Assembly: GCF_020510445.1 (NCBI RefSeq)
Contig: NZ_JAHBAG010000001.1
Location: 1,092,501 to 1,156,500 of the forward strand
Length of the DNA: 64,000 bases
Direction: 5' to 3'
DNA from: Hydrogenophaga taeniospiralis
Lineage (GTDB): Bacteria > Pseudomonadota > Gammaproteobacteria > Burkholderiales > Burkholderiaceae_C
Shown here: positions 37,376 to 63,605 of the stretch, piece by piece
How positions within the stretch are numbered: position 1 is the first letter of the stretch
Layout of the letters: every line of letters begins with the position of its first letter
The notes under the pieces: model-generated
The model's database searches: none
The model's input: only the letters and a program-made list of their open reading frames with translations
What the model was told of the DNA's origin: nothing
Position numbers and translations under genes: made by a program

Positions 37376-37387
37376 CGTTACGTGACG
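37376..37387. promoter_or_regulatory. Palindromic enhancer-type site, near match
   Basis: CGTTACGTGACG differs at one base from the perfect palindrome CGTTACGTAACG found at three other places in this island. Its centre is exactly 145 bp upstream of the -12 GC of the sigma54-like element before the manC-like gene. The stretch 37308-37607 otherwise holds no gene. Confidence 0.5.
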
Positions 37388-37512
37388 CGTCGCCCCGACC
37401 GGGTAACGCCGCGGCCCCGGTGCGCGCCCGAGCGGCCCCGCCTGCGGGTGAGGTCGGAAAAAGTCGTTGTGAATCAAGGCCTGGATGCGGCCCGGCGCGT
37501 GGCCGTGGCCGC

Positions 37513-37528
37513 TGGCGCGAAACCTGCA
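37513..37528 (+). promoter_or_regulatory. Sigma54-like -24/-12 element
   Basis: TGGCGC-N5-CTGCA keeps GG and GC with ten bases between them but departs from the TGGCAC/TTGCA consensus at two positions, so it is the weakest of the four. It ends 79 bases before the manC-like start. Confidence 0.45.
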
Positions 37529-37607
37529 CCCGGCCCATGGCAGAAGCGGCAACCCCGCCTGCGGCACCCAGCCCAGGCGCGTTGCCTCGCCCAACACCGG
37601 ACGACCC

Positions 37608-38912
37608 ATGACCATCATCCCCGTCATCTTGTGCGGGGGGGCCAGCACCCAGCTGTGGCCCCTGAGCCGGAGCAACCGGCCCGCGCAGTTCGTGCCGCTG
37701 ATCGACGGCCGCAGCCTGCTGCAGCTGACCCTGTCGCGCCTGGCCTGGTGCGGAGCGTCGGTGATCTGCGTGGCGGACGAGGACCACCGGTTCCACGTGC
37801 AGGAAGCGTTGCGCAAGGAGCGCCTGCACGGGCAGATCGTGCTCGGGCCGGATGGGGCCATGCCCGCGGTGGCCATGGCGCTGGCGGCGCTGCAGGTGCG
37901 CACCCTCGAGGGTGGAGACCCTCTGCTGCTGTTTTCCCCGGCCAACCACCACGTGCCCGACAGCGTGGCGTTTCGCGAGGCGGTGCTGGAGGGCGTGGGG
38001 GCCGCGATGTCGGGCGCCATCGTCCATCTGCGTGCCCGGCCCGGGCTGCCCGGCCCCGTCTGGCAGCGCGGCGTGGTGCTGGCCCGGGCCAGCACCGTGC
38101 TGGCCGCGCTCTCGGCCCACGCGGAGAGCACCCTGCTCACCTGCGCCAACGCCATGGTGGGCGTGGCCTGCGAAACCCCGGCGGGCGACGCGCGCATCCG
38201 GTTCGTGCGGCCCCACCCGGTGGATCTGCGGTGTTGCCTCCAGGAAGCGGGGGAGCGGGACTTCATGGCGCGATACGCGCGGGTGGTGGAGCGGCCCTTT
38301 GCCGGGCCCTGGACCCAGGTCGACGGCTGGAACGACGTGGCCGCGCTGCTGCCGGCCGACACCGCGGGCAACCACATCACCGGCCCGGCACACACCGTGC
38401 ACGCCCGCCGCAACCTGATCCACGCCCACGGACGCACGGTGGTCGCCCTCGGCACCCAGGACCTGCTGATCGTCGATACCCGCGACGCCCTGCTGGTGGC
38501 TCGCCGCGACCAACTGCAGGCGATGGACGCCGTGCTGGCCCAGCTGCGCTGCCAGCAGGCCTCGCTCACCGCCCGGCCTTCGCAGGCGGTGGCGCAATGG
38601 GGGCAGCTCAGCAGCGTGGACCAGGGGGAGCGCTTCGAGATCAACCACCACCGGGTCAAGCCGGGGGGCTGCCTGGGCCTGCGGCTGCACCACCACCGCT
38701 CGGAACACTGGATCGTGCTCCGGGGCACCGCGGAAATCACCCACGGCGAGCAGAGCCAGCTGCTGTACGAAAACCAGTCCACGCAGATCGCCGTGGGCCA
38801 GGCCTACCAGGTGTGCAACCCCGGGAGCATCGAGCTGGAAATGATCGAAGTGCAGACCGGCAGCTTCATCGGCGACCAGGACGTGATCCACCTGGAAAGC
38901 GTCGCGGGGTAA
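37608..38912 (+). CDS. Degenerate mannose-1-phosphate guanylyltransferase-like protein (ManC-like)
   Basis: 434 residues from ATG 37608. The overall plan is ManC/CpsB: nucleotidyltransferase domain, then a C-terminal cupin isomerase-like domain (FEINHHRVKPGGCLGLRLHHHRSEHWIVLRGTAEI). The catalytic signature, normally G-G-x-G-T-R-L-W-P-L-S-R..P-K-Q-F, reads CGGASTQLWPLSRSNRPAQF, so the Arg after Thr and the Lys before Gln-Phe are missing. The protein is also some 40 residues shorter than usual. It is probably inactive or has a changed job. No gmd, fcl or other sugar genes are near. Confidence 0.75.
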   Translation: MTIIPVILCGGASTQLWPLSRSNRPAQFVPLIDGRSLLQLTLSRLAWCGASVICVADEDHRFHVQEALRKERLHGQIVLGPDGAMPAVAMALAALQVRTLEGGDPLLLFSPANHHVPDSVAFREAVLEGVGAAMSGAIVHLRARPGLPGPVWQRGVVLARASTVLAALSAHAESTLLTCANAMVGVACETPAGDARIRFVRPHPVDLRCCLQEAGERDFMARYARVVERPFAGPWTQVDGWNDVAALLPADTAGNHITGPAHTVHARRNLIHAHGRTVVALGTQDLLIVDTRDALLVARRDQLQAMDAVLAQLRCQQASLTARPSQAVAQWGQLSSVDQGERFEINHHRVKPGGCLGLRLHHHRSEHWIVLRGTAEITHGEQSQLLYENQSTQIAVGQAYQVCNPGSIELEMIEVQTGSFIGDQDVIHLESVAG

Positions 38913-38950
38913 GGCGCTGCGTTTCCTGTTCCCGGTGCCGTGGGCCGTGG

Positions 38951-38962
38951 CGTTACGTAACG
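38951..38962. promoter_or_regulatory. Palindromic enhancer-type site
   Basis: A perfect 12-bp palindrome CGTTACGTAACG, 38 bases after the manC-like stop. Its centre is exactly 145 bp upstream of the -12 GC of the next sigma54 element. Confidence 0.65.
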
Positions 38963-39087
38963 GGGGCGCTCCCAGCCATTGAAAACCGGCCCCGGCCCGC
39001 TGCCTGCGGCCTTCGAACCGTGTGGGCCTGAAAACAAGGCGTTGAATTCAAACGGAATTTGCCCCGTTGGGGATGGCCGGCGATCGG

Positions 39088-39103
39088 TGGCACCCTATTT
39101 GCT
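39088..39103 (+). promoter_or_regulatory. Sigma54 promoter, consensus match
   Basis: TGGCAC-N5-TTGCT matches the -24/-12 consensus completely, with ten bases between GG and GC. It ends 69 bases before the start of the unknown gene at 39173. Confidence 0.8.
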
Positions 39104-39172
39104 TTGTTGTCACAAATTGTGTGCTTTGTGCAGGTCCGTGGCCGCCGACTGGCGTGAATGGAGAAACCGGAA

Positions 39173-39697
39173 ATGAAAGAAAAAGACGTCGCGATGGGTT
39201 ACGTGGTGATTTCCCGCGTATTGGCGCTGTTGACCGATCATCGCGCCCCTGAAGAAAACCGAACCGAGGGCCTTCCGGGTGACATGCGTTGCCTGGAAGA
39301 TGCCCAATTGGTCGAATTGTTTGGTTCTGTCATGGCGCGCGGATTCATCGGCATTCTGGATGTGTTCAGAAAAGCGCAGAGCTTGTCCAATGCGGGGGAA
39401 TTCCCGGTGGCGGGATTGGTGCTGGACGCATCGTTGAGCGCCAATGCCATGGAGCAGATGGAAATATCGGGGGTGCTCAAGGCGCTGCTCTCACGGAAAT
39501 ACGCGGTGGTGCTGCTGGGGGCTGGCGGTGGGCGAATCGATTTGCACGAATTGAGCGAATGTTGCACCAATTACGATTTCGTCCACATGTACATGAGCGA
39601 CATCTTTCCCAGCGCCAAACCCGCCGAGCGGCGCCCCAGCGAGGCGCGCAGCAGCTGGGTCGAGCGGGCCTGGGCGCAGTCGGCCCAGCTCGCCTGA
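39173..39697 (+). CDS. Unknown protein under a sigma54 promoter
   Basis: 174 residues from ATG 39173, placed nine bases after GGAG; an ATG at 39158 is also in frame and adds five residues. I do not recognise the family. It looks soluble, alpha/beta, with GYVVISRVLALLTDH, a hydrophobic strand VAGLVLDASLSANAMEQM, and AVVLLGAGGGRIDLHELSECC. No signal peptide. Base composition by eye is lower in GC than the neighbours, hinting at transfer. The next gene begins 18 bases after the stop, so the two form a unit. Confidence 0.7.
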   Translation: MKEKDVAMGYVVISRVLALLTDHRAPEENRTEGLPGDMRCLEDAQLVELFGSVMARGFIGILDVFRKAQSLSNAGEFPVAGLVLDASLSANAMEQMEISGVLKALLSRKYAVVLLGAGGGRIDLHELSECCTNYDFVHMYMSDIFPSAKPAERRPSEARSSWVERAWAQSAQLA

Positions 39698-39715
39698 GCA
39701 GGCCCGGTTTGAACC

Positions 39716-40393
39716 ATGCGGCAGGACTTGCCCGGGGCGATCGTCTTTTCGGATGAGCTGAAAAACACCTATCCCGCCGAAGACGTCAAGGGCCTCATCC
39801 GCTCGGGAAGCCTGCGAAAACTGGCCCGGGGCGCCTTCACCACAGAGCGCCAAAAACCGCTGGACGTGATCGTGCGGGAGAACTGGTGGCGGCTCGCGGA
39901 GCGATGGTTCCCGGGTGGCCTGGTCGTGCGGCGCTCGGCCGTGCCCGGGGTCATCGAACGCGAAAAGGTGGTGTACCTGACGTTTGGCCGCATGCATGGC
40001 ACCACCCAGATCCACGGATTCCGATTCACCGTTTCACCGGGGCGGCCGGCGGTCAAAGGCGTGAAAAACATGGTTTGTGACCACCGGCTGGGCAAGCTGT
40101 TTGTGTCATCGCGCGTGCGGGCCATGTTGGAAAACCTGGAATTCGACATTGACCAACCCGAAAGCATTCTCGGGTATGGCTGGGTGGAAGACGAATTGCG
40201 CCGGCTGTACCGGCACCAGGGATATGCCGGGCTGGTGGCGCTGTGCATGGATGCGGGTGCATTGGCCAGCCATTTCGGCATGGAGAAACCACGGGATGAA
40301 TTGGCCATCTGCGTGGAAAGGGTATTGGCGCTGTCGGGGAATGGGCGGGGTCCGTTGCCGAATGTTGCGGGGATGCGCGGGGCCGTTACGTAA
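39716..40393 (+). CDS. AbiEi-antitoxin/Fic-N-terminal-like protein of unknown role
   Basis: 225 residues. The N-terminus, VKGLIRSGSLRKLARGAFTT..., followed by VIVRENWWRLAERWFPGGLVVRRSAV, resembles the winged-helix region found in AbiEi-type antitoxins and at the N-terminus of some Fic-family proteins. No Fic motif (HPFxxGNGR) follows, so if related it is that domain alone. The C-terminal half (GYGWVEDELRRLYRHQGYAGLVALCMDAG) is not recognised. It is in one unit with the unknown gene upstream. Its 3' end overlaps the next palindromic site. Confidence 0.6.
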   Translation: MRQDLPGAIVFSDELKNTYPAEDVKGLIRSGSLRKLARGAFTTERQKPLDVIVRENWWRLAERWFPGGLVVRRSAVPGVIEREKVVYLTFGRMHGTTQIHGFRFTVSPGRPAVKGVKNMVCDHRLGKLFVSSRVRAMLENLEFDIDQPESILGYGWVEDELRRLYRHQGYAGLVALCMDAGALASHFGMEKPRDELAICVERVLALSGNGRGPLPNVAGMRGAVT

Positions 40394-40419
40394 CGCGGAG
40401 CCCGTCGCTGACGTAACGT
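40384..40419. promoter_or_regulatory. Palindromic enhancer-type sites, one perfect and one degenerate
   Basis: A perfect CGTTACGTAACG lies at 40384-40395, across the stop of the preceding gene; a second, 9-of-12 match (GCTGACGTAACG) lies at 40408-40419, centre-to-centre 24 bp. The perfect site is centred 177 bp upstream of the -12 GC of the following sigma54 element. The 353-base stretch 40394-40747 holds these signals and no gene. Confidence 0.6.
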
Positions 40420-40552: not shown

Positions 40553-40568
40553 TGGCATGCAAGTTGCG
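40553..40568 (+). promoter_or_regulatory. Sigma54 promoter before the acidic repeat-protein gene
   Basis: TGGCAT-N5-TTGCG, with GG and GC ten bases apart, is a near-consensus -24/-12 element. The start codon is 180 bases downstream, leaving a long leader. Confidence 0.7.
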
Positions 40569-40747: not shown

Positions 40748-43069
40748 ATGGCGACTGAAACTGTATTGAACCAAGGGGTGGCCGGTGCTGCGGCGAACAC
40801 GGCGTCTGCTTCGGCGGCGGAGCTGGGCGTCTTGTCCAACGCATCACCGGGGGTGGTGGTGGTCCGCGAGGGGCAGCGCATGGCCGTGCAGGACAGCGTG
40901 GCCCTGAAGGTGGGCGACCAGGTGCTGGTGCCCCAGGGGGGCCAGGCCGCCGTGACATTCCCGGGATCGGCAGCCAACCAGGCGCCCTTGCAGGGGACGC
41001 TCGTGGGCGGGACGGACGCCACCATTGGCGTCGCGTCGCTGCCCAACGGGACGCAGCAGGCGGTGATCGATCTCGCGGCGGGCGACTTCGTGCCCAGCGG
41101 GCAAGGTGCCGAGGAAGCGGCCGTGCTGATGGTCAAGAAAGCCGCCCCGTCCTTGTTGGGCGGCGGCCTGGCCCTGGGTGAGTTTGCACTGGGCGCTCTC
41201 GGCGTCGGGGCCGTCGCCGCGATGCTCAATGACGATGGCGATGACTCGGATGCCGATGCTGATGCTGATGCCGATGCCGATGCTGACGCTGACGCTGACG
41301 CTGATGCCGATGCTGACGCTGACGCTGACGCTGATGCTGATGCCGATGCCGATGCCGATGCCGATGCCGATGCCGATGCCGATGCCGATGCCGATGCCGA
41401 TGCCGATGCCGATGCCGATGCCGATGCCGACGCCGATGCCGACGCCGACGCCGATGCTGACGCCGATGCTGACGCTGACGCCGATGCTGACGCTGACGCC
41501 GATGCTGACGCTGACGCTGACGCTGACGCTGACGCTGATGCTGACGCTGACGCTGACGCTGATGCTGATGCTGATGCTGATGCTGACGCTGACGCTGATG
41601 CCGACGCTGACGCGGATGCCGACTCCGATTCGGACGCGGATGGCGGCGACAAGCTGTTCGATCCGGGCAGCGACCTGGCCGACGGGACGGTGGATTCGCT
41701 TGACAGGACCCTGGTGCTCGAAGGGGTGCTGGAACCGGTGGCGTCCACGGTGGGCGATCTGACCGACACCGTCAGCGATGCCCTGGCGCCGCTGGTGGGC
41801 GACGAATTCACCGAGGACGATCCGAATGGCCTGGACCCGGCCGACGATTTCGTGGATCAGGTGGCCGACACCGGTGAAAGCCTGCTGGAGCCGGTCGTGG
41901 ACGGCCTGCTGGGCGACGGGACGACCGACATGCTGCTGGGCTCGACGGTGGGGCAGGTGGACTACCTCACGGACGCGGTCGGCAACCTGGTGGACGATGG
42001 CACGCTGGTCGGCGATGCGCTGGACGGTCTCGGCCTGGGCGGCCTCACCGACGGTTTGCTGGACGAAGGTGGTGTGGTCGATGGCCTGCTGGGCGCCACG
42101 GTGGGCGACGAGGGCCTGGTGGGTGGCCTGCTGGCCGACGAAGGTCTGGTGGGTGAGCTGCTGACCGACGACGGTCTGCTCGGGGGCTTGCTGGATGTGC
42201 AGGAGCCCACCACCGGCGACGCGCTGCTCGATCCGTCCGAAGGGCTGCTGGGTGGGGCGGTGGACGACACCGGCGCCCTGGGCCTGGGCGACACGCTGGA
42301 GCCGGTGGTGGACATCGTCGGCAACGTGACCGACACCACCAGCGGCCTGCTGGCCCCGGTGCTGGGCACCGACTTCCAGGCGGACGACCCCAACGCGCTG
42401 GACGGTGTGGACGGCCTGGTCGGCACCGTGACGGACCCGGCGGGCGATCTGCTGGCGCCCGTGGTCGATGGCCTGCTGGGCGACGGCGCGCTGGACGGCA
42501 CGCTGGGCGCCGTGGAAACGCAGGTGGACTACGTGACCGACGGCGTCGTCAACGTGCTGGAGGGCGATCTGCTCGGCGGGGACCTGCTCGGTGGTCTGAC
42601 CGAAGGCGATCTGCTGGGTGGCTTGACCGAAGGCGACCTGCTCGGTGGCGTGGTCGGTGAGGACGGCCTGCTCGGTGGTCTGACCGAAGGTGATCTGCTG
42701 GGTGGCTTGACCGAAGGTGACTTGCTCGGCGGTGTGGTCGGTGAGGACGGCCTGCTCGGTGGTCTGACCGAAGGCGATCTGCTGGGTGGCTTGACCGAAG
42801 GCGACCTGCTCGGTGGCGTGGTCGGTGAAGACGGCCTGCTCGGTGGTCTGACCGAAGGCGATCTGCTGGGTGGCGTGACCGAAGGTGACTTGCTCGGTGG
42901 CGTGGTCGGTGAGGACGGCCTGCTGGGTGGTCTGACCGAGGGCGATCTGCTGGGTGGCTTGACCGAAGGCGACCTGCTCGGCAGCACCCTGGAGCCGGTG
43001 ACCAGCATGGCGCCGCTCGACGGGGCGCTCACGCCGGTGGTGGACCTGACCCAGGGCCTGCCGGTCTGA
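40748..43069 (+). CDS. Large acidic repeat surface protein, putative type I secretion substrate/adhesin
   Basis: 773 residues from ATG 40748, which has GGAGAGGG at ideal spacing; an ATG at 40694 lacks one. Domain order: an N-terminal beta-rich region (about 30-115) with [21 protein letters not shown], like FecR or LapA-type N-termini; a hydrophobic segment (136-160, [21 protein letters not shown]); an uninterrupted run of 62 Asp-Ala pairs (about 168-291); two ~95-residue related blocks (about 320-417 and 512-607, each with LEPV..VG..TDT and [10 protein letters not shown]); then four 28-residue repeats. No RTX nonapeptides and no signal peptide. Export by the adjacent type I system is inferred. 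Confidence 0.8.
41249..41620 (+). repeat. Hexanucleotide repeat encoding (Asp-Ala)62
   Basis: Sixty-two consecutive GAYGCN hexamers, checked line by line, with no interruption. Third-position variants (GATGCC, GACGCT, GATGCT and others) form blocks, so the tract grew by repeated local duplication. Six-base changes stay in frame. Confidence 0.97.
42590..42979 (+). repeat. 84-bp tandem repeats (28-residue units)
   Basis: Four full units encode [28 protein letters not shown] with one Leu-to-Val variant, followed by a partial unit of two GGLTEGDLL blocks. Total 390 bp, exactly 4 x 84 + 54. High DNA identity between units suggests copy-number variation among strains. Confidence 0.93.
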
Positions 43070-43090
43070 TCCGATCCATCTCCACAACGG

Positions 43091-43130: not shown

Positions 43131-43634
43131 ATGAAGACACAGCTTTTTCTATGGACCTGTGTGGCCGCTTTCGCCAGCGGCTGCGCGACCCAGCCCCAGG
43201 AGGGCGCCAAGCAGCAGGTGTATTACCAGGCCTACAAGCGGCAGGACGCCGCTGTGGTCCGGCGGGTGGAGCCCGCGCCGGTGGCGAGCGTGCTGGGGCC
43301 GATGGGCGTGTCCGGCACGGTCTATTTCGGCTTCGACCAGTCGACCCTGCAGCCGCAGTACCTGCGCATCGTGGAACAACACGGTGAGTACCTGCGCCAG
43401 AACACCGGCCGCAAGGTGCAGCTCGACGGCCACACCGACGAGCGCGGGGGCACGGAATACAACATCGGGCTCGGCCAGCGCCGCGCCGAGACGGTCCGGC
43501 AAGCCCTGATGCGCATGGGCGTGGCCGACACCCAGCTGGAGGCGGTGAGCTTCGGCAAGGAAAAGCCGGCCTCCGCGCTGCAGACCGAAGAAGGCCACCA
43601 ACTCAACCGGCGGGTGGAGTTCAGCTACCGATGA
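43131..43634 (+). CDS. OmpA/Pal-like peptidoglycan-binding lipoprotein
   Basis: 167 residues. The lipobox is AFASGCATQ. After a ~40-residue linker comes an OmpA C-terminal domain: GTVYFGFDQSTLQPQYLRIVEQHGEYL and the peptidoglycan-binding signature GHTDERGGTEYNIGLGQRRAETVRQAL, with the Asp and Arg that grip diaminopimelate. It probably sits in the outer membrane and anchors the secretion apparatus or the exported protein to the wall. The stop overlaps the next start (ATGA), showing translational coupling with the operon downstream. Confidence 0.93.
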   Translation: MKTQLFLWTCVAAFASGCATQPQEGAKQQVYYQAYKRQDAAVVRRVEPAPVASVLGPMGVSGTVYFGFDQSTLQPQYLRIVEQHGEYLRQNTGRKVQLDGHTDERGGTEYNIGLGQRRAETVRQALMRMGVADTQLEAVSFGKEKPASALQTEEGHQLNRRVEFSYR

Positions 43635-45409
43635 GCCGGGCCGGTGCGGGCCCGCCCGCACCGCTGCCTTCCCCCTCCAACCCTCACACCCGTACGGCCA
43701 TGACCCTCCAGGACCAGTTGAGCATGTGCCGGCAGCTCCTGCCGGCCGGGAACACGTCGGTGGGCCCCTGGCCCGCGCAGACCCTGTTCTTCTCCGTCAG
43801 CGACCGGGCTTCGCGGGCCCGGGTGTTCCACGTGAGTGCCGCCAGCCTCGACGCGGCCTGGCAGCAGGGTGTGGACTGGGTGCAGGCCTGGAGCGCGGCG
43901 ACCCAGCGCAGCGAGCCCCTGTGGCTGCGGGTGGACGTGGTCACCTCGGTGCGGGCGATGGCCTGGAGCGGGTTCAAGGAACAGCTCCAGCAGGTCAAGC
44001 GCAACTACCTGCGCTACGGGCTCGCGCTCGACGAAGGCTTTCGCCACGCCTTCACCGAGCAGGAGATCAACGCCAACGCCATGATGTACGGCGGGGCCGG
44101 CATCGCGCACGCCGAGGTCAACATGGGCCACCTCAAGCGCTACGGCCGGGCCCGGTTTGGCGAAGACTTCGAGCCGGTCCTGCTGCCCTCGTCGCCGGTC
44201 TACCTGCTGACCACCGCCGGCGTGTTCTGCGACGAACACGGCCGCGCGCACCCCATCAGCGGCCAGGGGCCGGACGCCGGCCGGCGCGACCTGGCCGAGC
44301 TCGATGCGGCCACCGTGCGCGGCCTGGTGCGCTCGGGCGCCGGGTACCTGGCGCGCCAGGTGCAGGAAGACGGGCGTTTCATCTACGGCCGCTTTCCCTG
44401 CTTCGACCGCCGCATCGACACCTACAACGCCCTGCGCCACGCCAGCTCCACCTACGCCATGATCGAGTCGTGGGAGCTGATCGAGGGCGACGAACTGAAG
44501 GCCGCAATCGAGCGCGCCCTGGTGTACCTGGTGGAGCGCCTGATCCGCACCTGCCAGCTGCCCGACGGCCGGCGCGCCGCCTTCCTCGTGGACGAGGTGG
44601 GCCAGGAGATCAAGCTCGGCGGCAACGCGATGGCGATTCTGGCGCTGGTCAAGTACAGCGAGGTCATGGGCACCAGCGCCTGCGCCGACCTGCTGGAGCG
44701 GCTCGGCACCGGCATCGAGCTGATGCAGGACCCCCGCAGCGGCGCCTTCACACACGTGCTCCATGCGCGCAACCTGAAAGTCAAGGAGCCGTTCCGGATC
44801 ATCTATTACGAAGGCGAGGCCGCGTTCGCCCTGTGCCGTCTCCACGGCTTCAGCGGCGACCCGCGCTGGCTGGCCATGGCCGAGAAGGCGTTCGATCATT
44901 TCATCGCGTCGCAGCACTGGCAGCACCACGACCACTGGCTGAGCTACGGTGTCAACGAACTGACCCGCTACCGCCCCGAGGAAAAGTACTTCCGCTTTGG
45001 CCTGCAGAACATCGAAGGCCACATCGGCTTCGTGCGCCACCGCCGGACCACCTTCCCCACCCTGCTGGAGCTGATGATGGCCTCCAGCCAGATGCTGCGC
45101 CGCCTGCAGGACAGCCCCGAGCTGGGCCACCTGCTGGCCGACGTGGACCAGGAAAGCTTCCGCGAGGCGCTGGTGCACCGGGCCCGCCACATGCTCAACG
45201 GGCATTTCTGGCCCGAGATGGCGATGTACTTCAAGCAGCCCGACAGCATCGTGGGCTCGTTCTTCATCCGCCACCACTCGTTCCGCGTCCGCATCGACGA
45301 CGTGGAGCACTACCTGTCGGGCTACGTCGCCTACCACGCCTGGCTGATGCAGCAGCAGACCCAGGCGACGCTGGAGGCCAGCGCCGGCATTCCCGAAAGT
45401 TGCCCATGA
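43631..45409 (+). CDS. Helical-toroid (six-hairpin glycosidase-like) protein in the secretion operon
   Basis: 592 residues from ATG 43631 (ATGA overlap); an ATG at 43700 would give 569. There is no signal peptide. The C-terminal two thirds consist of regularly spaced helices with the motif RRIDTYNALRHASSTYAMIESWE, KLGGNAMAILALVKYSE and YEGEAAFALCRLHGFSGDPRWLAMAEKAFDHFI, the pattern of an (alpha/alpha)6 toroid as in glycosidases, glucuronyl epimerases and lantibiotic cyclase-like folds. The substrate is unknown. It overlaps the ABC transporter start, so it is part of the export system. Confidence 0.75.
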   Translation: MSRAGAGPPAPLPSPSNPHTRTAMTLQDQLSMCRQLLPAGNTSVGPWPAQTLFFSVSDRASRARVFHVSAASLDAAWQQGVDWVQAWSAATQRSEPLWLRVDVVTSVRAMAWSGFKEQLQQVKRNYLRYGLALDEGFRHAFTEQEINANAMMYGGAGIAHAEVNMGHLKRYGRARFGEDFEPVLLPSSPVYLLTTAGVFCDEHGRAHPISGQGPDAGRRDLAELDAATVRGLVRSGAGYLARQVQEDGRFIYGRFPCFDRRIDTYNALRHASSTYAMIESWELIEGDELKAAIERALVYLVERLIRTCQLPDGRRAAFLVDEVGQEIKLGGNAMAILALVKYSEVMGTSACADLLERLGTGIELMQDPRSGAFTHVLHARNLKVKEPFRIIYYEGEAAFALCRLHGFSGDPRWLAMAEKAFDHFIASQHWQHHDHWLSYGVNELTRYRPEEKYFRFGLQNIEGHIGFVRHRRTTFPTLLELMMASSQMLRRLQDSPELGHLLADVDQESFREALVHRARHMLNGHFWPEMAMYFKQPDSIVGSFFIRHHSFRVRIDDVEHYLSGYVAYHAWLMQQQTQATLEASAGIPESCP

Positions 45410-48566: not shown

Positions 48567-48568
48567 CC

Positions 48569-54555: not shown

Positions 54556-54560
54556 GCGCC

Positions 54561-54896: not shown

Positions 54897-54903
54897 GGGA
54901 CGG

Positions 54904-55686: not shown

Positions 55687-56630
55687 TTCACCATGCTCCC
55701 GAGAGACCGGATCACCGCGAGGAAGCCCGGCCCGGCCACGATGATCAACAGGGCGGGCAACAGCGTGGTCACCATGACCACGGTCATCTTCACCGTGATG
55801 ACGCCCACCCGGGTCTTCATCTCGGCCTTGCGGTGCACCCGCAGCCGTTCGCTGAACTGGCGGATCGGCTCCTGGATGGCGCCGCCGTGTCGGTCCACCT
55901 GGATCAGCAGCGAGATCAGGTCGGTGAGGTGCTGGTTCTGGTGCAGATCGGCCATGCGCTGGAACGCGTGTTCGCGCGTGCGGCCCTGGTTGTACTGGCG
56001 GTTGGCCGCCGCCACGTCGTTGCCCAGGATGGGGATCACGGCCGTGAAGTCCTTGGCGATGATCTGCAGGCTCTGGTCCAGGCTCAGGCCCACGCTCTGG
56101 AGCAGGCCGAGCAGGTCCACGAACAGCGGCAGCTCGTGCGAGACCCGGATGCGGCGGCGCGCGGCCAGGCGCTGCAGCAGCCATTTGGGCAGCATGAAAC
56201 CCACCACGAAGGCCGTGGCCAGCAGCAGGAACCCCTTGCGCGTGAGGTCGGGCCCGTGCACGAACAGCGCGTCCGTCAGCAGGGGCAGGCCGACCGCCAG
56301 CGCGGCGCGCGTCAACAGCAGGGTGAGCTGGGCCCGCACCGAGGGGAAGCCGCACTGGCTGATCATCCGGCGGTCTTCGTCGGCCACCAGCAGGCGGCCC
56401 AGCCGGGTGTCTAGCCAGTGCGCCGGCAGCTGCTCGTCGCGGTTGGGCGCCGCCAGGCCCGGGTCGTCGCTCTCGCGGGGCAGGCCGGCACCGCTGCGGT
56501 CCAGCGCGTTCTGGATCACCTGGGCGCCGCGCCGCTGCAGCCGCTGGCGGCGCAGCAGCAGCGCGGCCATGAGCACCAGGGCCAGGCTCAGCGAGGCCAG
56601 GGACAGCAGCAAGAGGGTGTGGGCCGTCAT
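55683..56630 (-). CDS. tadC: Tad platform protein TadC
   Basis: 315 residues from ATG 56630. An N-terminal membrane segment and the GspF/type II secretion F domain are visible: LPLFVDLLGLLQSVGLSLDQSLQIIA and HLTDLISLLIQVDRHGGAIQEPIRQFSERLRVHRKAEMKTR, with C-terminal membrane helices. It pairs with TadB to form the inner-membrane platform that the TadA motor turns. Five bases separate it from tadB. Confidence 0.95.
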   Translation of the reverse strand: MTAHTLLLLSLASLSLALVLMAALLLRRQRLQRRGAQVIQNALDRSGAGLPRESDDPGLAAPNRDEQLPAHWLDTRLGRLLVADEDRRMISQCGFPSVRAQLTLLLTRAALAVGLPLLTDALFVHGPDLTRKGFLLLATAFVVGFMLPKWLLQRLAARRRIRVSHELPLFVDLLGLLQSVGLSLDQSLQIIAKDFTAVIPILGNDVAAANRQYNQGRTREHAFQRMADLHQNQHLTDLISLLIQVDRHGGAIQEPIRQFSERLRVHRKAEMKTRVGVITVKMTVVMVTTLLPALLIIVAGPGFLAVIRSLGSMVK

Positions 56631-56635
56631 GGGGG

Positions 56636-57577
56636 TCACTCCAGCCGGGACAGGCGGTAGAGCAGGTAGACGCCCAGCGCCTGCAGGCCGGCCGCGCCCA
56701 GCACCAGCTGGCGCCCGGTGCCGTCGTCCCAGAGGCGGGCGAAATACGCGCCATTGATGGTGATGATGGCCGCGCCCACCACCAGGGGCAGCAGGCCCAG
56801 CACCCAGGCCGACATGCGGGTCTCGGCCGACATGGCCACCAGCTCGTGCTCCATTTCCTCGCGGTCGCGCATGAAGTGCGCGACCCGCTCCAGCAGCACG
56901 TCCGAGCGGCCGCCGTAGCGCACCCCCAGGCCCATGATGGACGCGAGCAGCTGCATCTCTTCGAAGCGCACCTTGTTCGCGACCTGCTGCAGCGCCTGGT
57001 CGATGTCCAGCCCGGCGCGCACCAGGCTCAGGGCGTTGTCCATCTGCTGGCGCAGCGGGTTCTGCACGCCGGGGATCGCCATCTGGAAGGCGGCCTGGGT
57101 CGAGTTGCCGACCACGATCAGGCGGGCAATGATGTCCAGGAAGCCGGGCAGCTGGCGGATCAGTTCGGTGCGGATTTTCTGCACCCGGGTCCAGAGGTAG
57201 AACGCGCCCAGCGCGAGCAGCAGCGCCAGCAGGCCGGCCGCGGCCATCCAGCCGGAGCGCGCGCCCACGACCACCACGGCCGCCACGATCAGCAGCCCGC
57301 CGGTCAGCAGCTGCCGGGAGGAGAGCGCGCCCAGCAGCCACTCGGGCATGGGGAAGAGCTCGCGCTGGCGCGCCACCGGGGTTGGCTCTTCCAGAGGGGG
57401 CGGCGCGCCAAAGCGCAGCTCGGAGGCCAGGGCCGCGCCCTCCAGCGCCATCTTCTTCGCCAGGGTCTGGTTGGCCACCCGGCGCCGCCGCTGGCGCGCC
57501 GCCATGTCCCACAGGAGCAGCAGCGCGCCACCCAGGGCCAGGGTCAGGCTGAACAGCAACACCCAGGGGCCGGACAT
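56636..57577 (-). CDS. tadB: Tad platform protein TadB
   Basis: 313 residues. N-terminal membrane helix (VLLFSLTLALGGALLLLWDM), two central helices (RQLLTGGLLIVAAVVVVGA; GLLALLLALGAFYLW), the F domain (QLPGFLDIIARLIVVGNSTQAAFQ; MDNALSLVRAGLDIDQALQQVA), and a C-terminal hydrophobic region. This is the usual TadB layout. It directly follows the ATPase gene tadA. Confidence 0.95.
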   Translation of the reverse strand: MSGPWVLLFSLTLALGGALLLLWDMAARQRRRRVANQTLAKKMALEGAALASELRFGAPPPLEEPTPVARQRELFPMPEWLLGALSSRQLLTGGLLIVAAVVVVGARSGWMAAAGLLALLLALGAFYLWTRVQKIRTELIRQLPGFLDIIARLIVVGNSTQAAFQMAIPGVQNPLRQQMDNALSLVRAGLDIDQALQQVANKVRFEEMQLLASIMGLGVRYGGRSDVLLERVAHFMRDREEMEHELVAMSAETRMSAWVLGLLPLVVGAAIITINGAYFARLWDDGTGRQLVLGAAGLQALGVYLLYRLSRLE

Positions 57578-57578
57578 G

Positions 57579-58889
57579 TCAGCTCTCTTTGTGTTGCTGG
57601 CGCTGCAGCACCTGCCGCAGGCGGACGATCTTGGGCGAGTGCGGGCTGATGCCCAGCGAGATCCAGCGGTCGCGCTCGTCCCCGTCGGGCAGGGGCTGCG
57701 GCTCGTAGCGGAACAGCTCCTGCATGGCGACCACGTTGTCGTTCAGGCCGGTGATCTCGCTGATCGAGATGATGCGGCGCCCGCCGTTGGGCAGGCGCCC
57801 GATCTGGATGATGAAGTCGATGGCGTTGGCGATCTGGCGCCGCAGGCTGACCTCGCTGCCCTGGTAGCCGGCGAAGCCTGCCAGCATCTCCAGCCGGTAC
57901 AGGCACTCGCGCGGCGAGCTGGCGTGGATGGTGCCCATGGAGCCGTCGTGCCCGGTGTTCATGGCCTGCAGCATCTCGATCACCTCGCCGCCGCGCACCT
58001 CGCCGACGATGATGCGGTCCGGGCGCATGCGCAGGCTGTTGCGCAGCAGGTCGCGGATGGCCACGTGGCCGGCCCCGTCGTAGCTGCCGGGGCGGCTTTC
58101 CATGCGGACCACGTGCGGGTGGTTCAGGGCCAGCTCGGCCGTGTCTTCGATGGTGACCACGCGCTCGTTCTCGGGGACGAAGCTCGCCAGCGCGTTGAGC
58201 AGGGCGGTCTTGCCCGAGCTCGTGCCGCCGCTGATCAGGATGTTGCAGCGCGCGCGCACCGCCATCTCCAGCAGTTGCGCCATGGCCAGGTCGAAGGTGC
58301 CCAGCTTGAGCAGGTCTTCGGGCGTGAGCGGGTCCTTGCGGAACTTGCGGATCGACACCACCGGGCCGTTGATCACCAGCGGCTCGATCACCACGTTGAT
58401 GCGCCCGCCGTCGCTCAGCCGCGCATCGACCATGGGGTTGGACTCGTCCAGGCGCCGGCCGATGGGCGCGAGGATGCGCCGCACGATGCGCATCAGGTGC
58501 GCGTTGTCGGCGAAGTTGAGCACCGCCTTCTGCAGCACCCCGTGTTTGGAGATGTAGATCTGCTTGCTGCCGTTGATCAGGATGTCTTCCACCGCGGGGT
58601 CGTTGAGCATGTCCTCCAGCGGGCCGAAGCCGGCGAACTCCTTGGTCAGGGCCTCGGCCAGGAGCTGGGTCTCCTGGCTGTTGATCGGCACCCGGTGCAG
58701 CCGCACCAGGCTCTCGCATTCCAGCGCGACGAACTGCTGGATCGAGCTGCGCGACCAGCGGCCGAACTCGGCGCCGAGCTCCTCGATCCGGTTGAGCAGG
58801 TGTTCGTGGATGAAGGCCTTGATGGTCTGGAACTCCTGGGAGTTCTGGAAGGTCTGCCTGTCGTCGGAAAACTCAACGTCCAAAGTCAT
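57579..58889 (-). CDS. tadA: Tad pilus assembly ATPase TadA (CpaF)
   Basis: 436 residues. Secretion ATPase of the VirB11/GspE superfamily: Walker [20 protein letters not shown], Asp box DTAELAL, Walker [34 protein letters not shown], and the His box within the last. The N-terminal helical domain ([25 protein letters not shown]) is typical of TadA. It energises Flp pilus extension and retraction. Confidence 0.97.
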
Positions 58890-58901
58890 GGTGGTGCTTC
58901 C

Positions 58902-60182
58902 TTAACTCTTCCACTTGCCGATCAGTTGAGTCATGTACCGCGTCCAGATGCCGGGGCTGGCCGTGGCGGAGGGGGTGTCGCCGGGCCAGGGCCCGAGGCT
59001 GCGGATCATGCCGCCCAGGGCCGTGACGTAGGGGTCGTTGCGGGCCACCCGCGAGATCAACTCGCCCTTGCTCGCGGCGATCAGCAGCGGGGCGCTGCGG
59101 TCGGGGATCACATGCCCCAGCGGGATGCCCAGCCGCGCGGCGATGTCGCTCGCGGGCAGGCCGATGCTGAGGCTGTACTTGTTGAGCACGAGGGCGAAGT
59201 GCTGGGTGTCCAGGCCGCGCTCGCGCAGCTCGCGCAGCAGCGTGGAGGTGGAGACGATGCCGCCGATGCTCTGGTCGCAGACCACCCAGACCTTCTCGGC
59301 GTCGCGCACCGACTGCGCCACGAAATCCACCGTGCTGAAGCCGCCCAGATCGGCGATCAGGAAGTCGTAGAAGTCGGTGAGCCGCCGGATCAGCGAGACC
59401 GACTCCGCGTGCGACACCTCCTTGATCTGCGCCAGGCTGGCCGGCAGCGGCAGCAGCGCCATGCCGCTGGGGTGGTGGGCCAGCGCCGTCTGCAGCAGGG
59501 TCTGGTCCAGCCGCTTGAGGTTGCGCACGCCGTCGACAAAACTGAAGCTGCTCTCCTGCCCCAGGTAGAGCAGGCCGTCGCGCGCGGGCAGCCCCAGGTC
59601 GAGCAGGACCACGCCCAGGCGCTGGGCCAGCCGGTTCGCCGCCTGTGGCTGCGCCTGCGCCGCGTTGCGCATCTCCTGCAGGCTCACCGCGAGGTTGCTC
59701 GCCAGCGTGCTGACCCCCAGGCCGGGGCGCGCGCCCAGCAGCGCGATGGTGCGGCCGCGGGCCTTCTCGCGGTCGCTCAGCCGGCGCACCATGAGCGCCT
59801 GCATGACCGACTGCACCGCCTCGTTCGAGGCGTTGACGAAGACGAAATCGTCGACCCCGCTGCGCAGCGCGAGCAGCGTGCACTGGGTGTCGGCCTCGCG
59901 GCCGGTGCCGATCAGCAGCACCTCGGGCCAGTCCCGGCGCAACAGGTCCACGATGCGGCCGGCGCGCGCGGCGTCGGCGTCGCTGAAGTCCAGGAACACG
60001 CACTGGGGGTGCAGCATCGCGACCCGCTCGCCGACGGTGTTTTCGTCGACCGCGACCGTGGTCACCGAGCCCAGGTCGGCCAGCGCGTGGTTCAGCCAGC
60101 TGATGTGCGGGCCGTGCACCGAGACATACAGGTAGACGCTGTCGGCCACGCTGTTGAGGGGGGTGAAGGGAGCGTTTTTCAT
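58902..60182 (-). CDS. tadZ: TadZ/CpaE-like localisation ATPase
   Basis: 426 residues. A REC-like N-terminus is followed by a MinD/ParA-type ATPase. The Walker A, normally K-G-G-x-G-K-T/S, is GARPGLGVSTLASN, so both lysines are missing; ATP turnover may be lost, as is reported for several TadZ proteins. Later motifs VLLDLGL (switch) and LIADLGGFSTVDFV are visible. TadZ sets the cellular position of the Tad machine. It sits between the secretin and tadA genes. Confidence 0.9.
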   Translation of the reverse strand: MKNAPFTPLNSVADSVYLYVSVHGPHISWLNHALADLGSVTTVAVDENTVGERVAMLHPQCVFLDFSDADAARAGRIVDLLRRDWPEVLLIGTGREADTQCTLLALRSGVDDFVFVNASNEAVQSVMQALMVRRLSDREKARGRTIALLGARPGLGVSTLASNLAVSLQEMRNAAQAQPQAANRLAQRLGVVLLDLGLPARDGLLYLGQESSFSFVDGVRNLKRLDQTLLQTALAHHPSGMALLPLPASLAQIKEVSHAESVSLIRRLTDFYDFLIADLGGFSTVDFVAQSVRDAEKVWVVCDQSIGGIVSTSTLLRELRERGLDTQHFALVLNKYSLSIGLPASDIAARLGIPLGHVIPDRSAPLLIAASKGELISRVARNDPYVTALGGMIRSLGPWPGDTPSATASPGIWTRYMTQLIGKWKS

Positions 60183-60204
60183 CGTGGGCTTGCCGCGGGC
60201 GGCC

Positions 60205-61524
60205 TCATTTGGAAAAACCGGGCAGGGCTTCGTCGGCGCTGGTGCCGATGAAGTGGCCGCGCCAGACCGCGGGGTCGCGGATCTCGCTGGCGCCGGGCAG
60301 CGCGCTCTGCAGGTCGGTGCCGCGCGCCAGCGGCCGCACCAGGGTCGGCGTCACCACGATGACCAGCTCGGTCTCGTTCTGCAGGTAGTTCTGCCGCTTG
60401 AAGAACGCGCCCAGCACCGGGATGTCGCCCAGGCCGGGCACCTTGTCCACGTTGGAGCTGGTGGTGCGGCTGACCAGGCCGCCGATGACGAAGCTCTCGC
60501 CGTCGCCGAGCTCGATGGTGGTGTCGGCCCGCCGGGTGGAGATCGCGGGCACCGACATGCCGCTGAGGGTGACGGCGTTGGTGTAGTCCAGATCGCTGGC
60601 CTCGGGGGCCACCTTGAGCACGATGCGCTCGTTGGACAGCACCGTGGGCGAAACCGTCAGGCCGATGCCGAAGGGCTTGAACTCGATGCTGGTGCTGCCC
60701 AGGCCCTGCGCGACCGGCACCGGGATCTCGCCCCCGGCCAGGAAGTTGGCGCTCTGCCCGGACAGCGCCACCAGCGTGGGTTCGGCCAGCACGCGGGCCA
60801 GCCCGTTGCTTTCGAGCAGGCCGAGATTGAGGCCCAGGTTGGCCTTGCCGAAGTTCATGACCAGACCGAAGGCCTGCGCCAGCGGCGAGATGGACTCGGT
60901 GGCGAGTTCCCCGTTGGGCCCCCAGGTCGCCTGGGTCAGCGAGCTGGGGGAAAAGACGCCGAAGCTGAAACCGTGCCGGTTGGGCGCGGTGCTGAACAGG
61001 TTCAGGCCGGCCTGCTTGAGCACGCGCTTGTTGAACTCCACCACCTTGACGTCCACCTGCACCGTGTGGCTCTTCACGTCCACCGTGGCCTGGTTGTGCA
61101 GCAGGTCGTCCTTGCCGCGCGCGGCCTCGGCCGAGCGGGCGGCCTTCAGGTAGGCCGGGGTGCTGGGGTGGGCCTGGTCCAGCGTCTGTTCGCGGCGCCG
61201 CACCTGGATGGCGTAGCGCCGGGCGTCCTTCTCGCCCTTGACCCACAGCATCAGCGAGGTGCTGCCCGCGGCCTTGGCCGTGATCAGCACGCGCACCGCC
61301 TTGCCGTTCAGGCCGGCGCGCGACAGCGCCATGCTGGCGACCGCTTCGTCGGCGATGGCGATGCGCTCGATGCCCTGGTCGAACAGCAGCTCGTGCATCG
61401 TCCCCTGGGTCAGCGACAGCACTTCCTGCGACGCCGCCGGCTGGGCAGCGAAGGCCGTGCCGGTGGCGAGCAGCGTGGACAGGATGCAGGGCCCCAGGAT
61501 CGGGTGGCTGTGCGAGGGCTTCAT
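60205..61524 (-). CDS. rcpA: Tad secretin RcpA/CpaC
   Basis: 439 residues from ATG 61524, chosen for its signal peptide (LSTLLATGTAFAAQ) and GAAAGAG ribosome-binding site; ATG 61563 overlaps the previous stop and adds 13 residues. A BON-like/pilus N1 region (RAGLNGKAVRVLITAKAAGSTSLMLW) precedes the secretin core: VDVKVVEFNKRVLKQAGLNLF, LAEPTLVALSGQSANFLAGGEIPVPV and the C-terminal DIPVLGAFFKRQNYLQNETELVIVVTP. It forms the outer-membrane pore for the Flp pilus. Confidence 0.95.
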   Translation of the reverse strand: MKPSHSHPILGPCILSTLLATGTAFAAQPAASQEVLSLTQGTMHELLFDQGIERIAIADEAVASMALSRAGLNGKAVRVLITAKAAGSTSLMLWVKGEKDARRYAIQVRRREQTLDQAHPSTPAYLKAARSAEAARGKDDLLHNQATVDVKSHTVQVDVKVVEFNKRVLKQAGLNLFSTAPNRHGFSFGVFSPSSLTQATWGPNGELATESISPLAQAFGLVMNFGKANLGLNLGLLESNGLARVLAEPTLVALSGQSANFLAGGEIPVPVAQGLGSTSIEFKPFGIGLTVSPTVLSNERIVLKVAPEASDLDYTNAVTLSGMSVPAISTRRADTTIELGDGESFVIGGLVSRTTSSNVDKVPGLGDIPVLGAFFKRQNYLQNETELVIVVTPTLVRPLARGTDLQSALPGASEIRDPAVWRGHFIGTSADEALPGFSK

Positions 61525-61559
61525 GGGGGCGCTCTTTCGGGTGGGGCGGTGCGGGCGGT

Positions 61560-62564
61560 TCATGGCAGGCGCACCGTGTCGACCTGGCCACTGCGGATCA
61601 CCTCGACGCTCGGCCCCGAAGGGGGCGGGGCCGCGGCGCCGGCCCGGTGGGCGAGCGGCGCGGCGGGCAGGCGTCGCGCCCCGGCCGCCCCGCGCAGCGC
61701 CTGGGCGCCCTGGGCCAGGCTTTCCATGGCCAGGCCGCCGAGGGCCCGGTCCGCACCCTGCGGTTCGGCGACCGGGGTGGCGGCCGCGTCCTTGGGGCCA
61801 CGGGCGAGCGCGGGTTGGAGCACCGTGGGCCACGAGGGGTACAGGTCGGCGGTGGGCACGGCCGCGTCCGACGGGTTGCGCAGCGTCAGCGACAGCCGGC
61901 CGTGGGCCTCGGCCAGCAGCACCGCGTTGACCTCTTCGACCCGGATCGCCAGCACCGCCGTGCGGGCCTGCTCGGTGCGTGGGGCCGCCGCCGCGGACGA
62001 CGCTGCCTTGCCGTTTGGGGGGGCGGGGCCGTCCAGCGAGCCGGGGCCGTAGGCCAGGACCCGTTTGCGCGACAGCAGCATGCGGGCCTGGCTGCGGTCG
62101 ATCTCGCCGTTGTCGCGCTTGAGCGCGAAGAACACGTCGACGTAGTCGCCCGGGCGCACCCGGTTGCCCACGCTGCTGACTTCGTCCATCTTGACCGCCA
62201 GGGCCCGCTCACCCGGCTCGATCAGCGTGGCGAGCCCGGCCGCCAGGTGCTGGGCCAGCACCGGGGTGTCCACGCCCAGCGGCAGGGTCGGGGTCTGGCC
62301 GACGATGCCCTGCGTGTCCTTGAACGCGCCCACCGGGTTGATGCCCAGCTGGACCGTGCGCAGGTCTTCCGGCTGGATGGGCTGGCCGGCCGCGATCGGC
62401 CTGGCGGCCACCACCACCGTGTGCTGGGGCGGTTGGGGGGCCGAGCGGGTGGCCGCGGCCTGGGCGGCCGGGTCGGGCTTGCGGCTGAGCACCCAGGCGT
62501 ATCCCCCCAGGACCAGCGCGGCCAGCACCAGCAGGGCCGCCAGGATTCTTGTCAGGTTGAACAT
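61560..62564 (-). CDS. cpaB: Flp pilus assembly protein CpaB (RcpC)
   Basis: 334 residues from ATG 62564. Signal/anchor helix ILAALLVLAALVLGGYAW, then an SAF domain (VVVAARPIAAGQPIQPEDLRTVQLG, the CpaB signature), and the RcpC domain (RVRPGDYVDVFFALK, VLAIRVEEVNAVLLAEAHGRLSLTLRNPSD). A long Ala/Pro-rich C-terminal tail is not conserved. It links secretin and pilus in the periplasm. The upstream in-frame start at 62609 is less likely. Confidence 0.94.
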   Translation of the reverse strand: MFNLTRILAALLVLAALVLGGYAWVLSRKPDPAAQAAATRSAPQPPQHTVVVAARPIAAGQPIQPEDLRTVQLGINPVGAFKDTQGIVGQTPTLPLGVDTPVLAQHLAAGLATLIEPGERALAVKMDEVSSVGNRVRPGDYVDVFFALKRDNGEIDRSQARMLLSRKRVLAYGPGSLDGPAPPNGKAASSAAAAPRTEQARTAVLAIRVEEVNAVLLAEAHGRLSLTLRNPSDAAVPTADLYPSWPTVLQPALARGPKDAAATPVAEPQGADRALGGLAMESLAQGAQALRGAAGARRLPAAPLAHRAGAAAPPPSGPSVEVIRSGQVDTVRLP

Positions 62565-62621
62565 AGGGCTCCGATGGAAGGAAAACGGAACGTTCTGACG
62601 GGGCGCCACGGCGCGGCGGGC

Positions 62622-63155
62622 TCACGGCGGCACCGGCAGGTGCCGCCAGAGCGTGAACGCCAGGGCGACGATCGACATGTAGGCCGCCAGCGGGATCTTT
62701 CGTCCCTGGGGTCTGGTGCCCGGTGGGCCGGGTGGGGGCATCGGAGCCCGGCGGCGCAGCGCGTGCAACGAGAGCACCAGCAGCGCATGCAGCAGGGCCA
62801 GCAGGTTGGCCCCCAGCCAGGTGGCCAGCATCAGCTGGGGCCCCAGCCACAGGCCCAGCACCGTGCCCAGCTTGACGTCGCCCGCCGCCATCGACCCCAT
62901 GAGGTAGAAGGGCAGCAGCAGCGCCAGCGCGAGCAGGCCTCCGAGCGCCGCACGGGCCGCCGTGAGCTCCACGGGGTTCAGGTTCAGCGCCAGGGCGGTG
63001 AGGGCGCCCAGAGCGCCGACCACCACCATCGCGTTGGGGGCTTTGCGTCGGGTGGCATCGAAAAAGACGGCCACCAGAAGAAACGCCACAAAGCCTGTGA
63101 GAACCAGGCCCGCGGTCAGGCGGGCGTCAAGCGGCGGGAGCCAGCGCGGTTGCAA
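62622..63155 (-). CDS. tadV: Prepilin peptidase TadV/CpaA
   Basis: 177 residues, from a TTG at 63155 that lies inside the flp gene; a later GTG is possible but would remove the first membrane segment. Membrane segments and the two catalytic aspartates are visible: Asp in FFDATRRKAPN and Asp in MAAGDVKLG (G-x-G-D variant reading A-G-D). TadV cleaves Flp and the TadE-type pseudopilins. The C-terminal ~40 residues are Pro-rich then hydrophobic. The 29-base overlap with flp suggests coupled translation. Confidence 0.88.
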   Translation of the reverse strand: MQPRWLPPLDARLTAGLVLTGFVAFLLVAVFFDATRRKAPNAMVVVGALGALTALALNLNPVELTAARAALGGLLALALLLPFYLMGSMAAGDVKLGTVLGLWLGPQLMLATWLGANLLALLHALLVLSLHALRRRAPMPPPGPPGTRPQGRKIPLAAYMSIVALAFTLWRHLPVPP

Positions 63156-63300
63156 TGGATTGGAATATCAATTTCAGGTTGTCCCCGACGTCACCGACGA
63201 CCACCAGAATGACGACCGAAATCAGGCCCGCAATGAGGCCGTATTCAATGGCGGTGGCGCCCTCTTCGTCTTGCCAAAAAGCCAGAAGGTTATTTTTCAT
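63127..63300 (-). CDS. flp: Flp-family type IVb pilin
   Basis: 57 residues from ATG 63300; ATG 63303 is adjacent and equally possible, with AGGA upstream. The short leader is followed by the processing motif EEGATAIEYGLIAGLISVVILVVVG, with cleavage after Gly and the conserved Glu-Tyr; the hydrophobic helix and short C-terminus make up the whole pilin. It is the main subunit of the Tad pilus and heads the operon, after a sigma54-type promoter. Confidence 0.96.
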   Translation of the reverse strand: MKNNLLAFWQDEEGATAIEYGLIAGLISVVILVVVGDVGDNLKLIFQSIATALAPAA

Positions 63301-63382
63301 CATCAAATCCCTGGAAAAAAGTGAATGCACGTTGAAAAAAAGAACATTCCAAATTGCCTTGCGACAACTTGTAACAATCTAA

Positions 63383-63398
63383 AGCATTTTCAATGCCA
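63383..63398 (-). promoter_or_regulatory. Sigma54 promoter of the Tad operon
   Basis: On the minus strand TGGCAT-N5-ATGCT keeps GG and GC with ten bases between. It lies 83 bases upstream of the flp start, in the right direction. The -12 half differs from TTGCW at one base. Confidence 0.65.
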
Positions 63399-63560
63399 GC
63401 CGAAATCAAGGTGGTTGGGGCAGGGTTTGATAGACCCCATGAACCCGGTTCGCGCGGGCCACGCTGGCAGAAAACGCAGCACGCCGCCCTTGCGGGGCGG
63501 CGTTTCTGGCGATGGCGCTGTGCCTGCGGCGGTGGATCATGGGAGGTGTTCCTGGCCAAT

Positions 63561-63605
63561 GTTACGGGCATGTAACGAAAGATCGATTGGGCATGTTACG
63601 TAACG
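63561..63605. promoter_or_regulatory. Tandem palindromic enhancer-type sites upstream of flp
   Basis: GTTAC-N6-GTAAC (63561-63576) and TGTTACGTAACG (63594-63605; core GTTACGTAAC at 63595-63604) lie with centres 31 bp apart, near three helical turns. They are 184 and 215 bp upstream of the -12 GC of the flp promoter. Confidence 0.6.

Follow-up and report, generated by a model that had tools for sequence, protein, structure and literature searches.

Activation of sigma54 RNA polymerase by DNA looping is established for enhancer-binding proteins, and those of the FleQ/VpsR type control attachment genes. In Burkholderia cenocepacia, BerB is described as an RpoN-dependent activator of biofilm matrix genes, and passages of the same paper place sigma54 activator sites most often about 80-150 bp upstream of the promoter (PMC5552954). 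A second regulator of this species, GtrR, is BCAL1536, and the passages on it name as its partner RpfR, which senses Burkholderia diffusible signal factor (BDSF) and cyclic di-GMP (c-di-GMP) (PMC12838280); the 463-aa protein has been purified, and the gtrR cloning primers are printed (PMC8174753). Here, we analyzed a 64,000-nucleotide stretch of Hydrogenophaga taeniospiralis (contig NZ_JAHBAG010000001.1; hereafter the window), in which a Tad pilus cluster, a repeat protein with type I secretion genes, two genes of no recognized family and a ManC-like gene lie together with a sigma54 activator gene. We propose, with a probability of roughly 0.9, that the palindrome YGTTACGTAACR, usually accompanied by GTAAC or GTTAC half-sites, serves the GtrR-type protein encoded at 50186-51571 as its upstream activating sequence and that it would join four units of this island into a surface-attachment regulon.

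Results

An earlier note, made from the letters of the window, had described four palindromes, each upstream of a -24/-12 element of GG-N10-GC spacing, and all eight sites were found where it had placed them. The palindromes at 37376 (one mismatch), 38951, 40384 and 63594 (one mismatch, outside the 10-bp core) were confirmed by letter; they are the only matches in the window at up to two mismatches, where 0.63 would be expected, and none of 100 shuffles reached four. Operator 1 (37377..37386, GTTACGTGAC, one mismatch) precedes the element of the ManC-like gene (37513..37528, plus strand, TGGCGCGAAACCTGCA, 9 of 11 consensus letters, identical in locus L013), and operator 2 (38952..38961, exact GTTACGTAAC) precedes the element before gene A (39088..39103, plus strand, TGGCACCCTATTTGCT, 11 of 11, with TGGCA and TTTGC invariant in four genomes). 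Operator 3 (40385..40394, exact GTTACGTAAC) is followed by the element of the repeat protein (40553..40568, plus strand, TGGCATGCAAGTTGCG, 9 of 11, identical in L013), and operator 4 (63595..63604, exact GTTACGTAAC) by that of the Flp/Tad unit (63383..63398, minus strand, TGGCATTGAAAATGCT, 9 of 11). All four elements have the GG-N10-GC pattern of sigma54-type promoters, and the distances between operator and element are 126, 126, 158 and 196 bp.

Common -24/-12 look-alikes might fall near palindromes by chance, and the element on its own is not enriched in this GC-rich window (184 matches at up to three mismatches versus 230 expected). With the score defined as the number of letters matching the 11-letter consensus, 22 sites in the window score at least 9. 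All four palindromes (up to one mismatch) nevertheless have such an element at 60-220 bp, whereas across 200 dinucleotide shuffles of the window palindromes averaged 0.13 and pairs 0.005, with never more than one pair; the score threshold and distance range were picked after viewing the four sites, and the controls use identical settings. The copy at 37377 is ambiguous, as a second score-9 element lies on the minus strand at 37269. The pairing in the island is real and far beyond chance, and these shuffles, together with the genome-wide and multi-genome counts and the 43 of 43 Burkholderia loci given below, make coincidence a negligible explanation.

A genome scan, as the earlier note had proposed, confined pairs with an element of score at least 9 to the island sites. 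The exact word GTTACGTAAC has three copies in the 5,284,038-base genome, all inside the island, in agreement with the note, which had not seen the perfect palindrome elsewhere. Among the 11 sites with up to one mismatch, the four island sites have an element of score at least 9 within 40-300 bp and the other seven have none. Two of these seven, overlapping one-mismatch copies at C1:2905671, have a common score-8 element; this was not counted as a fifth site, the sole gene called after the element being convergent. The genome contains one rpoN-type gene. As a separate observation, GTTACGTAAC with up to one mismatch is rarer than its reversed word (11 versus 71 sites), which may reflect avoidance outside the regulon or composition.

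We extended the comparison to 60 relatives, own genome included, of which 36 belong to the same genus (genomes are given as G numbers and loci as L numbers). The activator was found in four of the 60, three of them Hydrogenophaga, and these three carry 3, 3 and 2 exact palindromes, versus three in total in the 33 Hydrogenophaga genomes that lack it. Flp pilins above the family cut-off are present in activator-free G001, G003, G011 and G025 with no exact palindrome there, and a second Flp pilin locus of the own genome (C1:2415175-2415579) stands without the palindrome as well. The palindrome thus goes with the activator and not with the pilus in the sequences compared.

All 64 exact palindromes of 29 activator-carrying genomes, 17 of them behind named loci, were then scored. 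An element of score at least 9 lies at 60-220 bp from 38 of the 64 (23 at score at least 10), and from 32 of 58 when the own genome and H. taeniospiralis, the source of the idea, are excluded. By contrast, none of 18 palindromes from 12 activator-free relatives is paired (Fisher test, p = 1.8e-6, for related genomes and hence events that are not independent), and other 10-bp palindromes in the same loci are paired in 77 of 1547 cases (5.0%). Of the 64 palindromes, 21, in 15 of the 29 genomes, share a contig with the activator gene and lie no more than 55 kb from it, versus 1.1 expected (positions compiled by hand). The proposed sigma54 regulon gains support in that the pairing recurs in other activator-carrying genera and was unseen in the activator-free relatives sampled.

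An extra GTTAC or GTAAC half-site within 45 bp accompanies 34 of 38 paired palindromes, 6 of 26 unpaired ones and 1 of 18 in activator-free genomes; on the promoter side, the gaps cluster at 2, 6-8, 17-19 and 28-29 bp. Because the half-sites are enriched at paired palindromes, we regard them as part of the operator, which is better described as YGTTACGTAACR plus half-sites. In the window, they accompany the operators of the repeat protein (GTAAC, 40413-40417) and the Flp unit (GTTAC, 63561-63565, and GTAAC, 63572-63576); the ManC-like operator has a GTAAC 16 bp on (37403-37407), kept together with the palindrome in the H. taeniospiralis comparison genome, and the operator of gene A has no extra half-site within 45 bp.

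Orthologous Hydrogenophaga promoters were available from four genomes each for gene A and the repeat protein, three for Flp and two for the ManC-like gene. GTTACGTAAC is invariant in the first three sets and GTTACGTGAC in the ManC-like set, and in the gene A and Flp promoters the -24/-12 letters form the other conserved block. The pairs proposed from the window are thus conserved in orthologous promoters of Hydrogenophaga, except that the element of the repeat-protein promoter is unaligned in the two more distant genomes.

The protein encoded at 50186..51571 on the minus strand, taken in the earlier note for a sigma54 activator, has the Sigma54_activat domain (PF00158, 211 bits) and a Fis-type HTH_8 domain (PF02954, 47.6 bits), which bears out that assignment. 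A GSFTGA or GAFTGA loop is present in 12 of 12 aligned activator sequences, and within the DNA-binding domain all 12 share an invariant 13-letter stretch, down to 52% identity; the protein is 97% identical in the H. taeniospiralis comparison genome. The AAA+ domain and Fis-type helix-turn-helix are shared with enhancer-binding proteins of the FleQ/VpsR type. FleQ ranks directly after the nearest structural match described below but is far more distant (about 6e-55, AAA+ domain only), and what we take to be the c-di-GMP motif of FleQ is not apparent by eye in the activator.

The nearest PDB structures are 7vbs and 7vbw (residues 5-453, E=5e-181, 61% identity to 7vbs). Proteins of Burkholderia loci L041 and L040 are 97% and 94% identical to the 7vbs protein, and that of G319 (L021) is 96% identical to it; the window activator is about 61% identical to the L041 open reading frame. 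The printed gtrR primers fit the first and last codons of this 463-aa frame with 2 and 1 mismatches of 20. In L041, the gene order is RcpC, secretin, TadZ, TadA-type ATPase, two T2SSF, TPR and Tad protein, followed by the activator; the activator comes after the Tad genes in each retrieved region that contains both, and the window copy is likewise the last gene of its Tad cluster. In B. cenocepacia, BCAL1525 is an Flp pilus subunit (PMC10224339). The similarity to 7vbs and L041 over the full length, N-terminal domain included, the primer fit and the position at the end of the Tad cluster make it very probable that the window activator is orthologous to Burkholderia GtrR, the L041 frame being linked to gtrR by the primer fit. 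The passages of PMC12838280 on GtrR treat RpfR, BDSF, c-di-GMP and cepI. BerB, also considered, was dropped as the identity of the activator because the Burkholderia orthologs end the Tad cluster, whereas BerB (BCAM1342) is placed beside the bep cluster in the passages of PMC5552954 and PMC9684580. A gene for an Hfq-domain protein (L041:12232-12876) is the second gene away from the gtrR ortholog in L041, separated from it by a DUF2968 gene.

Term searches of the passages of PMC8174753 gave no footprint or palindrome for GtrR, and no GtrR operator, Tad target or small RNA was found among the listed matches of the literature searches; these matches did not include the original GtrR paper, so an earlier published site is possible. 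A text search for the palindrome gave no bacterial operator apparent by title among the matches listed.

In three genomes (G319, taken as Burkholderia from its activator and synteny, G389 and G390), an exact palindrome some 50 kb away from the activator gene is followed by 211-212 nt ending in a strong terminator, with no convincing gene. This stretch, whole or as its 3' part, was found in 61 of 61 sampled Burkholderia genomes, and the activator in 60 of the same genomes, the miss being an 82%-complete genome. At 43 of 43 loci (41 of the 61 genomes, weakest matches included, plus L131 and L145, possibly also among the 61), an element of score 9-10 follows an exact palindrome at a distance of 92-95 bp. 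The 5' half is diverged in some loci, and the L250 copy is shortened to 102 nt with its promoter retained. RNAalifold on 41 distinct sequences (without L250 and one duplicate) gave 38 consensus pairs, 16 varying and 10 changed on both sides, with 25 of 1555 cells unpaired as counted on the program's own structure without a shuffled control. The loci (L131:7669-8008, L020:5023-5362, L145:5170-5509 and L221-L260) adjoin a gene that is BamC-like by eye.

In the three loci scanned with Rfam at the gathering threshold, no family matched the RNA, and no description of the RNA was found in the literature passages searched. Term searches of the main text of PMC10987360, PMC5688073 and PMC4603805 gave no passage. 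NcS25 was rejected as a counterpart, as it lies beside BCAL3007/3008 and its authors found no upstream sigma54 motif (passages of PMC10117139); Bordetella S17 was rejected for its sigma-A promoter (passages of PMC11722255).

For the other pairs in relatives, the targets are the first genes that a simple caller placed after the element, and some of them may be misassigned; families are from Pfam where stated and otherwise by eye. Relatives of the acidic repeat protein lie behind pairs in G383, G384 and G127, and collagen-like lipoproteins in L024 (PF15984) and, by eye, in Cupriavidus (L133, L134, L136), Pandoraea (L132), a Polaromonas metagenome-assembled genome (L162) and L026. Exopolysaccharide-type targets comprise a bacterial sugar transferase (Pfam in L142; by eye in L155) and, in L156, a polysaccharide export protein and UDP-glucose dehydrogenase. 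PilZ and PAS-GGDEF-EAL proteins follow pairs in L152, a PAS-MCP protein in L164, a cytidylyltransferase in L208 (by eye L167) and a LuxR-type protein in L206, while in Burkholderia BCC1644 (L163) a ManC with intact motifs starts 514 bp after the element. Two small families recur: one of about 100 aa (L140, L151, L158, L210) with no Pfam match in the member tested, L210, which the others resemble by eye, and one (L137, L168, L207) assigned to DUF7696 by Pfam for L207 and by eye for the others. In relatives, the promoters with this pairing reach far beyond counterparts of the island genes.

Within the island, the ManC-like protein (37608..38912, plus strand) matches Pfam MannoseP_isomer and part of NTP_transferase and reaches 309 bits, below the NCBIfam cut-off of 373 (TIGR01479). 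GMP-PMI (ManC) guanylyltransferases have the motifs GTRLWP, PKQ and VEKP; compared with the intact L163 protein, the product of 37608-38912 shows STQLWP in place of GTRLWP and PAQ in place of PKQ, with the VEKP segment missing, and thus does not carry this motif set, while HHHRSEHW of the isomerase domain is retained. Given the lost motifs and the score under the cut-off, its guanylyltransferase domain is probably degenerate and not a working one, and the protein may be a pseudoenzyme.

Gene A (39158..39697, plus strand, 179 aa) has no Pfam or NCBIfam match, but three other Hydrogenophaga genomes with the activator encode homologs. In an even draw of 250 genomes of the family, it turned up in the own genome and H. 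taeniospiralis only; such a draw can miss distant homologs, as remote ones (26-32%) stand behind palindromes in G383 and G002. Its structure model is weak (predicted local distance difference test score 65, four sequences; best fold match E 0.42). Gene B (39716..40393, plus strand, 225 aa), 18 bp after A and 86% identical in H. taeniospiralis, also has no Pfam or NCBIfam match, and an AbiEi-like reading of it found no support in Pfam or PDB. The two genes had been put forward as targets, and a promoter with an operator is indeed present, but as one common promoter from which gene B would be reached at most by read-through.

The acidic (Ala-Asp) repeat protein (40748..43069, plus strand), a candidate secreted adhesin, has no Pfam match and only repeat-like NCBIfam matches far under cut-off; a LapA-like retention module was unsupported by NCBIfam or PDB. 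Its relatives found by tblastn stand behind palindrome/element pairs in L013, L129, L022 and L139. On the same strand follow an OmpA-family protein (43131..43634, PF00691), a 592-aa frame of no family (43631..45409), an ABC transporter (45403..47241, PF00005 and PF00664) whose top NCBIfam models are of type I secretion but under their cut-offs, an HlyD-type adaptor of type I secretion (47238..48566, TIGR01843, 338 bits, cut-off 209) and a TolC-like outer membrane protein (48563..50071, PF02321). Beyond the activator, on the minus strand, lie the Tad genes (51699..62609: TadG-like, two TadE, TPR, T2SSF, TadA-type ATPase, TadZ-like below cut-off, secretin and RcpC), the prepilin peptidase TadV (62622..63155, PF01478) and the Flp pilin (63127..63303, PF04964). 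Directly upstream of the island and in the same direction, NnrS and a 4Fe-4S ferredoxin gene occupy 35727-37307.

Discussion

The candidate operator and regulon are newly recognized, and the regulator is of a known kind. In the mechanism that we propose, the activator would recognize the palindrome, as the tracking of the palindrome with the activator gene supports, and would bind there as an oligomer. Through DNA looping, its AAA+ domain would then contact sigma54-RNA polymerase positioned on the -24/-12 element, at a distance of 126-196 bp, and the promoter would be opened by ATP hydrolysis. The four units, namely the Flp/Tad pilus, the acidic repeat protein with its type I export, genes A and B, and the ManC-like gene, would then be switched on together, their start points and co-transcription being predicted, and gene content and order suggest a surface-attachment program as the combined output. 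Since the activator gene closes the Tad cluster, positive autoregulation through the Tad unit is possible, and the signal may enter through RpfR and c-di-GMP as in B. cenocepacia.

Several points weigh against this reading. The distances of 158 and 196 bp exceed the usual range of 80-150 bp for such activators. Strong elements are absent from 26 of the 64 palindromes of activator-carrying genomes; two of the 29 genomes (G155, G396) have no exact palindrome, and in 14 no palindrome shares a contig with the activator gene at a distance of up to 55 kb, some of these assemblies being fragmented. G050, from outside the genus, has an Flp pilin and five palindromes with no activator at the threshold used, although none of the five lies near the pilin or has a strong element. 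The activator-free control draws in part on other families, and counts from related genomes are not independent. Among 14 Flp upstream regions with approximate starts, four have the exact palindrome and four (L195, L196, L199, L200) a common layout of clustered half-sites, while six (L022, L027, L135, L136, L197, L201) have neither, so that Flp is not a universal target.

Recognition of the palindrome by the activator rests on their tracking in sequence, and this correlation would also arise if another transcription factor traveling with the activator owned the palindrome, acting either with or against the sigma54 promoter, and the GtrR-type protein bound elsewhere. However, sigma54 promoters need an enhancer-binding protein, of which the GtrR-type protein is the sole one recognized among the island proteins scanned, and the pairs occur far from the activator gene and in other genera, among the sampled genomes only in those with the activator, which makes this alternative very unlikely. 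Somewhat less improbable, yet still unlikely, is that a paralogous enhancer-binding protein, for example of the BerB type, uses the same operator and shares the regulon. These genomes encode further enhancer-binding proteins, one of which might use the same site; passages of PMC5552954 describe biofilm genes of B. cenocepacia as controlled by BerB and RpoN, and several distant pairs precede exopolysaccharide genes. Within the genus, however, palindrome number follows the GtrR ortholog. The printed berA promoter element gave no exact match in the loci searched and no close match in a Burkholderia locus.

Beyond this island, we lean towards the view that across many genera of Burkholderiales a Tad-linked GtrR-type activator with one dedicated operator governs a sessility regulon, which would include pili and adhesins, collagen-like lipoproteins, exopolysaccharide enzymes and c-di-GMP proteins, and that in Burkholderia it may also drive a structured, sigma54-dependent small RNA of about 211 nt. 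If true, this would place an RNA output on a regulator of quorum sensing and c-di-GMP. The comparison indicates a conserved RNA downstream of a promoter of the sigma54 type. According to passages of PMC7970998, the B. cenocepacia Flp pilus genes BCAL1525, 1526 and 1528-1532 and the lipoprotein genes BCAL1520, 1523, 1524 and 1533 are co-induced on contact with host membrane vesicles, for which a common GtrR/sigma54 operator would account. Collectively, these findings provide a candidate operator and a list of targets for a regulator for which the literature searched gave no binding site, and they would explain how pilus, adhesin and matrix genes might be turned on jointly.

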